Assembly: GCF_021730305.1 (NCBI RefSeq) | Contig: NZ_CP032674.1 | Coordinates: 4,449,001 to 4,513,000, forward strand | DNA length: 64,000 nucleotides | From: Xanthobacter sp. YC-JY1 | Lineage (GTDB): Bacteria; Pseudomonadota; Alphaproteobacteria; Rhizobiales; Xanthobacteraceae | Direction: 5' to 3' | Part shown: positions 22,114 to 24,757 of the stretch, one piece after another | Layout of the letters: each line of letters begins with the position of its first letter | Position numbering within the stretch: position 1 is the first letter of the stretch | Notes under the pieces: model-generated | What the model was told of the DNA's origin: nothing | The model's database searches: none | Seen by the model: the letters and a program-made list of their open reading frames with translations, nothing else | Program-made: the position numbers and the translations under genes

Positions 22114-23043
22114 TCAAAGCAAGGCAGAGCGCCGGTCTTCGCCGTCTTGCACAGCCGGGCGGCAGGCCCGGACCATGGCGGCGACCTGCTCCACGTCGTC
22201 CCGGAACGGCAGAGTGCGCCGCCAGACGAGACCGATGGTGCGCGACGGCGCGGGATCGGGAAAGCGCAGCAGCCGCACGCGCGGGATGCGCCCGCCCTCG
22301 GAGGCGACGAACATCTGCGGCAGCAGCGTCACGCCCTGCCCGTTGGCGACCAGCTGGGCCAGCGTCGACAGGCTGGAGGCGCCGAAGCGCCGCAGCTGGC
22401 GAGCGTCCACCTTGCGGCAGACGTTGAGCGCCTGGTCCCGGAAGCAGTGGCCGTCCTCCAGCAGCAGGAGGTCGGCGGCGAGGATGTCCTCGGCGGCGGC
22501 GGTCTCGCCCGCAAAGTCCGCCGAGCTTTCGGGAACGGCGAGCAGGAACGGGTCCTCGAACAGCGCCATGGTCTCCAGCGCCGGATGTTCTACCGGCAGG
22601 CTGAGGATGACGAGGTCGAGGTCGCCATGGGCGAGGTCGTTCACCAGCTGCTCGGTCTGGCTCTCCCGCAGCGCGATCTCCACGCCCGGCCAGCGGCCCG
22701 CCATCTCCGGCAGCAGGCGCGGCAGGAGATAGGGCGCGATGGAGGGGATGACGCCGAGCCGCATCCGCCCTTCCAGCAGCCGCCCCCGGTCGCGGATGGT
22801 GCGCTCCATGTCGGCGAGGGCGGCGAGCACGCCACGGGCGCGCGATGCCGCCTCCTCCCCCACCGGCGTCAGGCGCACACCGCTCCGCCCCCGCTCGACC
22901 AGGCGCACGCCCAGCGCCTCCTCCATCTCGCGAATCTGCATGGAAAGGGCCGGCTGGGTGACGGCGCATTCCTCCGCCGCGCGGCCGAAATGACGGTGGC
23001 GGGCGAGGGCGTCGAAGTAGCGAAGCTGACGGGTGGAGAGCAC
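22114..23043 (-). CDS. oxyR: hydrogen-peroxide sensor OxyR (LysR family)
   Basis: A 309-residue LysR-type regulator. The winged helix (about 1-60: RQLRYFDALARHRHFGRAAEE then TQPALSMQIREMEEALG) is followed by a sensor domain with the OxyR redox pair C200 and C209 in LLEDGHCFRDQALNVC, the same nine-residue spacing as E. coli C199/C208. Peroxide forms the disulfide and switches the protein to an activator. It is divergent from katA, its expected target. The start is GTG, directly next to an 8-bp-arm palindrome, and the best promoter places the transcript start on that GTG, suggesting a leaderless mRNA. Confidence 0.93.
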   Translation of the reverse strand: MLSTRQLRYFDALARHRHFGRAAEECAVTQPALSMQIREMEEALGVRLVERGRSGVRLTPVGEEAASRARGVLAALADMERTIRDRGRLLEGRMRLGVIPSIAPYLLPRLLPEMAGRWPGVEIALRESQTEQLVNDLAHGDLDLVILSLPVEHPALETMALFEDPFLLAVPESSADFAGETAAAEDILAADLLLLEDGHCFRDQALNVCRKVDARQLRRFGASSLSTLAQLVANGQGVTLLPQMFVASEGGRIPRVRLLRFPDPAPSRTIGLVWRRTLPFRDDVEQVAAMVRACRPAVQDGEDRRSALL

Positions 23044-23077
23044 TCGATAAGATTACCTTATCGAAAACTCAATGCAA
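23044..23077 (-). promoter_or_regulatory. oxyR promoter and candidate OxyR operator in the oxyR-katA gap
   Basis: A perfect inverted repeat TCGATAAG-N5-CTTATCGA (23044-23064) touches the oxyR start codon. On the - strand TTGCAT (23072-23077), a 16-base spacer and TAATCT (23050-23055) form a promoter whose start point is the G of the GTG. OxyR bound at the palindrome could both repress oxyR and activate katA, the usual logic of this pair. Binding is inferred. Confidence 0.55.
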
Positions 23078-23166
23078 TCTGATTTGTCCTTATTCCAACT
23101 CACAGCCATGCTGCGCTCCGGTTGATCCGCCGCCGTCACGGCGCGAGTCCAAGCAGGGAGCCCTTC

Positions 23167-24672
23167 ATGACGCGACCCACCCTCACCACCACCGCCGGCA
23201 ATCCCATCGCCGACAACCAGAACTCGCTGACCGCCGGTCCGCGCGGTCCGGTGCTGATGCAGGACTATCAGCTCCTCGAGAAGCTCGCCCACCAGAACCG
23301 CGAGCGCATTCCCGAGCGCGTGGTGCACGCCAAGGGCTGGGGCGCCTTCGGCACCCTCACCATCACCGGCGATATCTCGAAATACACCAAGGCCAAGGCG
23401 CTCCAGCCCGGCGCGCAGACGCCCATGCTGGCCCGCTTCTCCACGGTGGCCGGCGAACTCGGCGCGGCGGATGCCGAGCGCGACGTGCGCGGCTTCGCGC
23501 TCAAGTTCTATACGCCCGAGGGCAACTGGGACCTCGTGGGCAACAACACCCCGGTCTTCTTCGTCCGCGACCCCTACAAGTTCCCGGACTTCATCCACAC
23601 CCAGAAGCGCCACCCCAAGACCAACCTGCGCTCCCCCACCGCCATGTGGGACTTCTGGTCGCTCTCGCCGGAGAGCCTGCACCAGGTGACGATCCTGTTC
23701 TCCGACCGCGGCCTGCCCGTGGGAGTCCGGAACATGAACGGCTACGGCTCGCACACCTATTCCTTCATCAACGAGGCGGGTGAGCGCTTCTGGGTGAAGT
23801 TCCACTTCAAGACCCTTCAGGGCCACAAGCACTGGACCAATGGCGAGGCCACCGAGGTGGTCGGCCGCACCCGTGAATCCACGCAGGAGGATCTGTTCAC
23901 CGCCATCGAGCGCGGCGAATTCCCCAAGTGGAAGGTGCAGGTGCAGGTGATGCCGGAGCTGGATGCGGAGAAGACCTCCTACAATCCCTTCGACCTCACC
24001 AAGGTGTGGCCGCACGGCGAGTATCCGCCCATCGACATCGGCGTCATGGAGCTGAACCGCAATCCGGAGAACTATTTCGCCGATATCGAGCAGGCGGCTT
24101 TCTCGCCGTCCAACATCGTGCCCGGCATCTCCTTCTCGCCGGACAAGATGCTGCAGGCCCGCATCTTCTCCTACGCCGACGCCCATCGTTATCGCATCGG
24201 CACCCATTACGAGCACCTGCCGGTGAATGCCCCCAAGTGCCCGGTGCATCACTACCACAAGGACGGCGCCATGCGGTTCTTCCCGCAGGTGACCGGGAAT
24301 ACCGACGCCTATTACGAGCCGAACTCGTTCAACGGCGCCGCCGAGGACGCCAAATATGCCGAGCCGCCGCTGCAGATCTCGGGCGATGCCGAGCGCTACA
24401 GCCACCGCATCGGCAATGACGACTTCTCCCAGCCGCGCGCCCTGTTCGAGCTGTTCGACGCCGGCCAGCGCCAGCGGCTCTTCAGCAACCTCGCGGCGGC
24501 CATGTACGGCATTCCGCAGGAAATCGCCGACCGGCAGATCGCCCTCTTCACCAAGGTCCACCCGGAATACGGGGCGGGCGTGAAGGCGGCGCTGGAGCAC
24601 GAGACCCGCGCCAAGGCGGCGGAGACGGCCCAGCAGCAGAAGAACCCGGCGGGCCCTGTCGCCGCCGAGTGA
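23167..24672 (+). CDS. katA: monofunctional heme catalase
   Basis: A 501-residue catalase converting H2O2 to water and oxygen. The distal His is H54 in [13 protein letters not shown], followed by [28 protein letters not shown] and the distal Asn region [23 protein letters not shown]. The proximal heme-ligand segment [23 protein letters not shown] contains the axial Tyr. Size and motifs fit small-subunit clade 3 catalases. There is no signal peptide, so it is cytoplasmic. The start at 23167 has GGGAG upstream; the longer ORF adds an unrelated Arg-rich stretch. Divergent oxyR suggests peroxide induction. Confidence 0.96.
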
Positions 24673-24720: not shown

Positions 24721-24757
24721 AAAGGGGGCGCGCCTCGCCGGCGCGCCCCCTTTTTAT
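24721..24757. terminator. bidirectional intrinsic terminator between katA and aqpZ
   Basis: A 14-bp stem AAAGGGGGCGCGCC with a TCGCC loop and its complement, followed by TTTTTATTT. The left side offers TTTCCGTTT for the - strand. Confidence 0.85.

Follow-up and report, generated by a model that had tools for sequence, protein, structure and literature searches.

Our analysis of the divergent oxyR-katA locus of Xanthobacter sp. YC-JY1 suggests that the 123-bp gap between the two genes acts as a LysR-type switch, with oxyR transcribed into a leaderless mRNA, or one with a leader of at most 1 to 2 nt, from a promoter whose -10 element lies inside IR1, the primary operator of OxyR. We assign this reading a probability of roughly 0.7. 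Comparison with related loci further supports, if somewhat less firmly, a model where the OxyR operator and the leaderless oxyR start are one and the same element in many Alphaproteobacteria, and where the operator in a second group, which includes Xanthobacter, is displaced by 5 bp against an otherwise rigid promoter-start unit. Below, the window denotes the whole 64,000-nucleotide stretch of DNA that was analyzed, and the positions of all features in it are given in Table 1.

RESULTS

OxyR and the divergent katA gene

The product of oxyR carries a LysR helix-turn-helix domain (PF00126; 1.4e-23) and a substrate-binding domain (PF03466; 6.1e-44), is 99% identical to OxyR of X. aminoxidans, and has OxyR 4x6g as its best PDB match (6.3e-53). 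Alignment to 4x6g placed the redox cysteines nine residues apart at C200 and C209 (GHCFRDQALNVC); in E. coli, the corresponding pair is C199/C208 (PMC2225504). The top NCBIfam family was the OxyR equivalog NF008361 with 239.1 bits, which is below a 329-bit cut-off presumably tailored to proteins closely related to E. coli OxyR. These domains and the cysteine pair point to a LysR family peroxide sensor with a putative role in peroxide-dependent activation of its targets. Beyond katA, we noted by eye a GC-rich hairpin followed by a T run at window positions 24724-24755, between the convergent katA and aqpZ genes, which is probably a terminator shared by both.

Table 1. Features of the oxyR-katA locus in the window
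Feature	Position	Strand	Description
oxyR	22114..23043	-	309 aa; GTG start (23043-23041); LysR family; OxyR Cys pair C200/C209
oxyR transcription start (predicted)	23043	-	First base of GTG; inferred from -10 spacing
Palindrome, 8-bp arms	23044..23064	-	TCGATAAG-N5-CTTATCGA; exact; touches oxyR GTG
IR1, primary operator (predicted)	23047..23061	-	T-N11-A OxyR box ATAAG-GTAAT-CTTAT; similar box near start in 175/189 relatives
oxyR -10 TAATCT (predicted)	23050..23055	-	6 nt before start codon
IR2, second OxyR site (predicted)	23069..23083	-	22 bp upstream of IR1; left half ATCAG good, right half poor
oxyR -35 TTGCAT (predicted)	23072..23077	-	TTG at -34 from start codon; TTG tracks start codon
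IR3-like site (predicted)	23079..23093	-	ATAAG-N5-ATCAG; overlaps IR2 and katA -35
katA -35 TTGTCC (predicted)	23084..23089	+	TTGTnn-N17-CATnCT in 8/8 distinct Xanthobacter loci
katA -10 CATGCT (predicted)	23107..23112	+	Start ~23119; weak by consensus
katA Shine-Dalgarno AGGGAG	23155..23160	+	By eye
katA	23167..24672	+	Haem catalase, divergent from oxyR; ATG at 23167; Pfam PF00199 2.3e-186

A predicted OxyR box lies next to the oxyR start codon

An initial annotation of this DNA had described a perfect palindrome with 8-bp arms, TCGATAAG-N5-CTTATCGA, that touches the GTG start codon of oxyR and overlaps the -10 element. We found the palindrome to be exact, with TAATCT inside it, and to be the sole match in the window when up to three mismatches were allowed; shuffled sequences gave a mean of 0.06 matches, with a match in 6 of 100 shuffles. 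The 8-bp arms extend beyond the conserved part, which is GATNAG-N5-CTNATC; the outermost bases vary in sister species. A search of the 5.39-Mb genome for the core GATMAG-N5-CTKATC gave a single location, a count no greater than chance since a backwards control pattern also matches once. Among LysR controls from the same genome (30 of 58 loci), oxyR was alone in having both TAnnnT at N5-8 and a perfect dyad box at its start.

The proposal that the palindrome serves as a self-operator on the oxyR start gained support from the eight distinct Xanthobacter loci (L001, L009-L012, L062, L063, and L066), all of which keep the predicted T-N11-A box at a constant position. The arms read GATAAG..CTTATC in three loci and GATCAG..CTGATC in three and are mixed in two (L063 and L066), so that both arms change together in six of the eight. 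Six nucleotides before the start codon, seven loci have TAATCT and one (L062) has TAAACT. Neither the outer bases of the arms nor the AAGG stretch is constant among these loci, and AAGG upstream of GTG was rejected as a Shine-Dalgarno sequence because it is not conserved among them.

A box near the oxyR start recurs across relatives

For a wider comparison, we collected 214 loci similar to Xanthobacter OxyR and excluded duplicates (7), LsrB-like loci (12), and loci of other LysR genes (6), which gave 189 distinct OxyR upstream regions. These came from an order sample (E ≤ 1e-70; 132 of 199 genomes), a genus sample (E ≤ 1e-60), a class sample (E ≤ 1e-65; 40 of 387 genomes), and named loci, with four second copies in the order sample and 14 lower rows in the class sample not included. 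All regions are alphaproteobacterial apart from L029, which belongs to a Burkholderiales MAG.

A box scoring at least 9/12 within 31 nt of the codon that anchors the helix-turn-helix was present in 175 of the 189 regions, compared with 230 of 3,780 base shuffles and with 17/189 in a control window further upstream (45 versus 31 positions). The idea of an OxyR operator on the start, which the initial annotation had taken as a local feature, was supported as to the operator and not as to its locality: the box recurs across the sampled relatives, ruling out a strictly local oddity.

An ATG lies inside the box in 131 regions, 103 of which have no rival start codon at +1 to +9 and were defined as class I, a few members having a later or earlier in-frame candidate. 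The other 28 loci have an ATG in the arm and a possible later start and were excluded from the main tests as ambiguous. Six of these 28 have TTG at -29 counted from the A of the T-N11-A box (hereafter the operator frame), and the true start of these six may thus be the later one. Class II comprises 29 loci, including the eight from Xanthobacter, with the start 5 to 8 nt after the A of T-N11-A; together with one locus at +10, they form a shifted group of 30. The remaining loci have a start at +3 or +4 (12 loci), +1 (1 locus), +10 (1 locus), or elsewhere (1 locus) or lack a box (14 loci). Some loci scored as lacking a box hold variants recognizable by eye, namely ATAAC-N5-GTTAT in L040 and L044 and a box with N6 in L109.

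The architecture of class I suggests how operator and start could be fused. The 13 bases of T-N11-A equal the length from a -12 T to a +1 A, so that the T of the box would be position -12 and its A the first base of the AUG. If this is true, the OxyR binding site encodes the initiator codon of OxyR itself.

The predicted oxyR promoter points to a leaderless start

The minus-strand promoter TTGCAT-N16-TAATCT that had been put forward for oxyR is present in the window. Given the 6 nt between TAATCT and GTG, transcription would begin on or beside the G. The in-frame codons up to the start read TAA TCT TAT CGA GTG, and because the stop codon TAA sits 12 nt upstream, this GTG is the only usable start; a longer open reading frame from an alternative upstream start codon is excluded by the same TAA. 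By eye, the -35 and -10 elements each match the E. coli consensus at only 3/6 positions, and an E. coli-type promoter scan listed no site of at least 9/12.

Two marks expected of a leaderless gene are present at oxyR, namely a predicted -10 element roughly 6 nt ahead of the start codon (TAATCT-N6-GTG) and the lack of a conserved Shine-Dalgarno sequence; N1 is G in only 13/103 class I loci and 3/30 shifted loci. The start codon is not the usual AUG, being GTG here and in three more of the eight Xanthobacter loci and ATG in the other four. The GTG is a caveat for the leaderless model since leaderless mRNAs favor AUG. In S. meliloti, one study gives AUG for 171 of 171 reported leaderless starts, with AUG also part of the leaderless definition in gene prediction, and cites non-AUG starts as inefficient in E. 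coli (PMC3616915). For B. japonicum, 192 transcript starts are reported exactly at start codons, and the leaderless set there has an extended -10 motif, TGnTA, in the part of the report available (PMC4842269). TGnTA occupies the corresponding place in 48/103 class I loci and is absent from that place at oxyR of the window.

Promoter elements tend to follow the start codon and not the operator

A leaderless oxyR mRNA would require the spacing between promoter elements and start codon to hold even at loci where the operator is placed differently. In the operator frame, 70/103 loci of class I and 2/29 of class II carry TTG at -34; at -29, the counts are 2/103 and 22/29 (p = 6e-17). Related sequences in this comparison are not independent, and the contrast was also seen among representatives with less than 70% identity, with TTG at -34 in 32/52 versus 1/21 and at -29 in 14/21 of class II versus 2/52 of class I (p = 3e-8). 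Counted instead from the start codon, TTG lies at -34 in the same 70 class I loci and in 10 of the 12 loci with a start at +5, 8 of these 12 being from Xanthobacter, and it lies at -35 or -36 in 11 of the 17 loci with a start at +6 to +8.

The -10 element behaves as the -35 element does, less strongly. TA at operator positions -12/-11 occurs in 98/103 class I and 18/29 class II loci (representatives, 49/52 versus 15/21; p = 0.014). In the correspondingly displaced position, TAnnnT occurs in 13/103 class I and 18/29 class II loci (representatives, 8/52 versus 10/21; p = 0.007). Other operator half-sites largely stay put and are somewhat less frequent in class II: the IR2 T at -34 is present in 101/103 versus 25/29 loci (p = 0.02) and the IR3 AT at -45 in 94/103 versus 21/29 (p = 0.01). 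Furthermore, the two halves of the class I box are unequal, with A at -11 in 98/103 loci and T at the mirror base in 70/103 (p = 4e-7), an asymmetry not expected from a pure operator; the corresponding values in shifted loci are 18/30 and 12/30 (p = 0.2).

The TTG contrast is not due to katA linkage, since it was seen among katA-linked loci alone (3/18 versus 13/16; p = 4e-4) and since TTG at -29 is present in 9 of the 13 class II loci that lack katA. Several subgroups fit the pattern poorly. TTG at -34 is missing in 33/103 class I loci and present in only 4 of the 15 katA-linked ones, and loci with a start at +6 to +8 have TAnnnT at N5-8 in 6 of 17 cases. The shifted pattern also does not fit the 12 loci with a start at +3 or +4, none of which has TTG at -29 and 5 of which have TTG at -34, suggesting a leader of 3 to 4 nt or another promoter. 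Overall, the leaderless oxyR mRNA proposed in the initial annotation agrees with this comparison, in which the spacing of the predicted -35 and -10 elements tends to be fixed relative to the start codon and not to the operator.

These results bear directly on whether a more distant upstream promoter could give oxyR an ordinary leader, with translation proceeding without a Shine-Dalgarno sequence and the operator acting as a roadblock to polymerase. The gap has room for such a leader, the promoter elements close to the start match the consensus poorly, and GTG is poor as a leaderless start. Nonetheless, we consider an ordinary leader unlikely. A long leader would need no conserved spacing, and the tendency of the TTG and TA elements to track the start codon across a 5-bp shift of the operator therefore speaks against it. 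A Shine-Dalgarno match of at least 5 bases is found in 3/103 class I and 0/30 shifted loci versus 3 of the 14 loci without a box (L115, L119, and L120, with matches of 5 to 7 bases).

Separately, two loci look like leadered exceptions: in L120 and L133, the A of an OxyR box lies about 32 to 33 nt before the start as judged by eye, with AAGGAGG preceding the TTG start in L120 and no Shine-Dalgarno match in L133.

The predicted sites in the gap match the geometry of an OxyR-controlled divergent promoter

The initial annotation had also proposed a switch between oxyR autorepression and katA activation, a putative function in keeping with the arrangement of sites in the gap, which matches the IR1/IR2/IR3 geometry of E. 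coli oxyR-oxyS. As in E. coli, there are three 15-bp sites: IR1 overlaps the oxyR promoter, IR2 lies next to the -35 element of the target, and IR3 overlaps that -35 element. Counted from the predicted katA start, IR1, IR2, and IR3 lie at about -65, -43, and -33, within 2 bp of the -66, -44, and -35 of E. coli oxyS (PMC5002191). The available part of that account describes IR1 and IR2 as the activating pair of the OxyR group and IR3 as the repressing site, with autorepression arising from IR1 because it overlaps the promoter of the regulator (PMC5002191). The sequence of the gap has this layout, with promoters and occupancy being predicted; in the right half of IR2, the T of T-N11-A is present and the A is not.

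On this basis, an OxyR dimer on IR1 would cover the -10 element, the start point, and the start codon of oxyR, and OxyR would therefore limit its own synthesis. Oxidized OxyR would place a second dimer on IR2 to form a tetramer beside the katA -35 element and activate katA. Reduced OxyR would place the second dimer on IR3, covering the katA -35 element and holding katA down. The katA promoter pattern on the plus strand is conserved in all Xanthobacter loci (Table 1), which is weak evidence because these eight loci are close relatives. One of them, L063 (genome G206, positions 1078-1500), has no katA between aqpZ and oxyR and retains the operator and TTGTGC-N17-CATGCT; this locus is a natural katA loss.

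A box of this kind could alternatively be the operator of another regulator such as LsrB. In A. tumefaciens, gel shifts showed LsrB binding to the oxyR-katG gap (PMC11975290), and the Xanthobacter genome encodes a 43% identical OxyR paralogue that we take for LsrB. We regard this assignment as very improbable, given that the three 15-bp sites with their 22- and 32-bp spacing resemble those of E. coli OxyR and that the box is present at oxyR with or without an adjacent katA.

Finally, translational control by an RNA hairpin at the start codon merits hardly any weight: although a transcribed palindrome would fold as an 8-bp stem, we rejected this structure because the 71-nt stretch folds no more stably than shuffled sequences (z = -0.64; 51 of 200 as stable), the stem would often be broken in class I since position 4 is A in 98/103 loci and its partner is T in only 70 (G in 20 and A in 13), and the palindrome would lie outside the transcript given the predicted start point.

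DISCUSSION

OxyR is a model redox switch, and descriptions of its autoregulation usually follow the E. coli layout. The predicted Xanthobacter arrangement departs from that layout at the oxyR start. E. coli oxyR has GGAGG before its ATG, and E. coli IR1, at -66 relative to the annotated 5' end of oxyS, precedes that ATG by about 30 nt as judged by coordinates, whereas Xanthobacter IR1 lies on the predicted -10 element and adjoins the start codon. Leaderless autoregulated repressors in which operator and start share the same short DNA are exemplified by lambda cI and tetR of Tn1721. These differ from OxyR in that they are not LysR proteins and are not known to use the spacing of a T-N11-A box as promoter spacing. 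LysR autoregulation is already known, and the layout proposed here, with the operator on a leaderless start, would be a new form of it. With the initiator codon, the promoter, and the predicted OxyR site all at one spot, OxyR may repress its own gene at the level of transcription, leaving no leader for posttranscriptional control. The layout also gives a simple rule for spotting other leaderless, self-covering LysR regulators.

A divergent catalase gene under OxyR likens the locus to the bidirectional katG/katA-oxyR promoter of Rhizobiales (PMC11975290; PMC8226930). Unlike in the katG systems, the Xanthobacter catalase is a haem catalase (PF00199) and not the catalase-peroxidase KatG. The available portions of these accounts contain no statement on the oxyR leader that we could find. 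Among the matches listed in our search, which left the subscription literature mostly uncovered, we likewise found no description of a leaderless alphaproteobacterial oxyR or of an OxyR operator that includes the start codon of oxyR, and this is a weak negative.

Other OxyR-type and LysR loci in the genus

Six further genomes of the genus (G199, G202, G204, G209, G210, and G211; loci L068-L073) have a best-match OxyR of 48 to 50% identity, with the ATG inside the box and no katA within the stretch examined. Genome G206 carries both kinds of OxyR, its second copy (L074) being 45% identical. These observations suggest gene exchange, or the differential loss of two OxyR lineages.

The OxyR paralogue of the YC-JY1 genome (L002; C1:2455083-2455958) shows no such box at its start by eye. 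It has counterparts in 12 of the 14 genus-sample genomes, its own included (E ≤ 1e-60), and is likely LsrB, a name that we infer. In the same genome, another LysR gene (L238; C1 near 2045760) has TAnnnT-N6 before one candidate ATG and, near that ATG, a T-N11-A dyad matching at 4/5 positions (ATAAATCCTGCTTAT), making it a possible, weaker candidate for a second leaderless, self-covering regulator.
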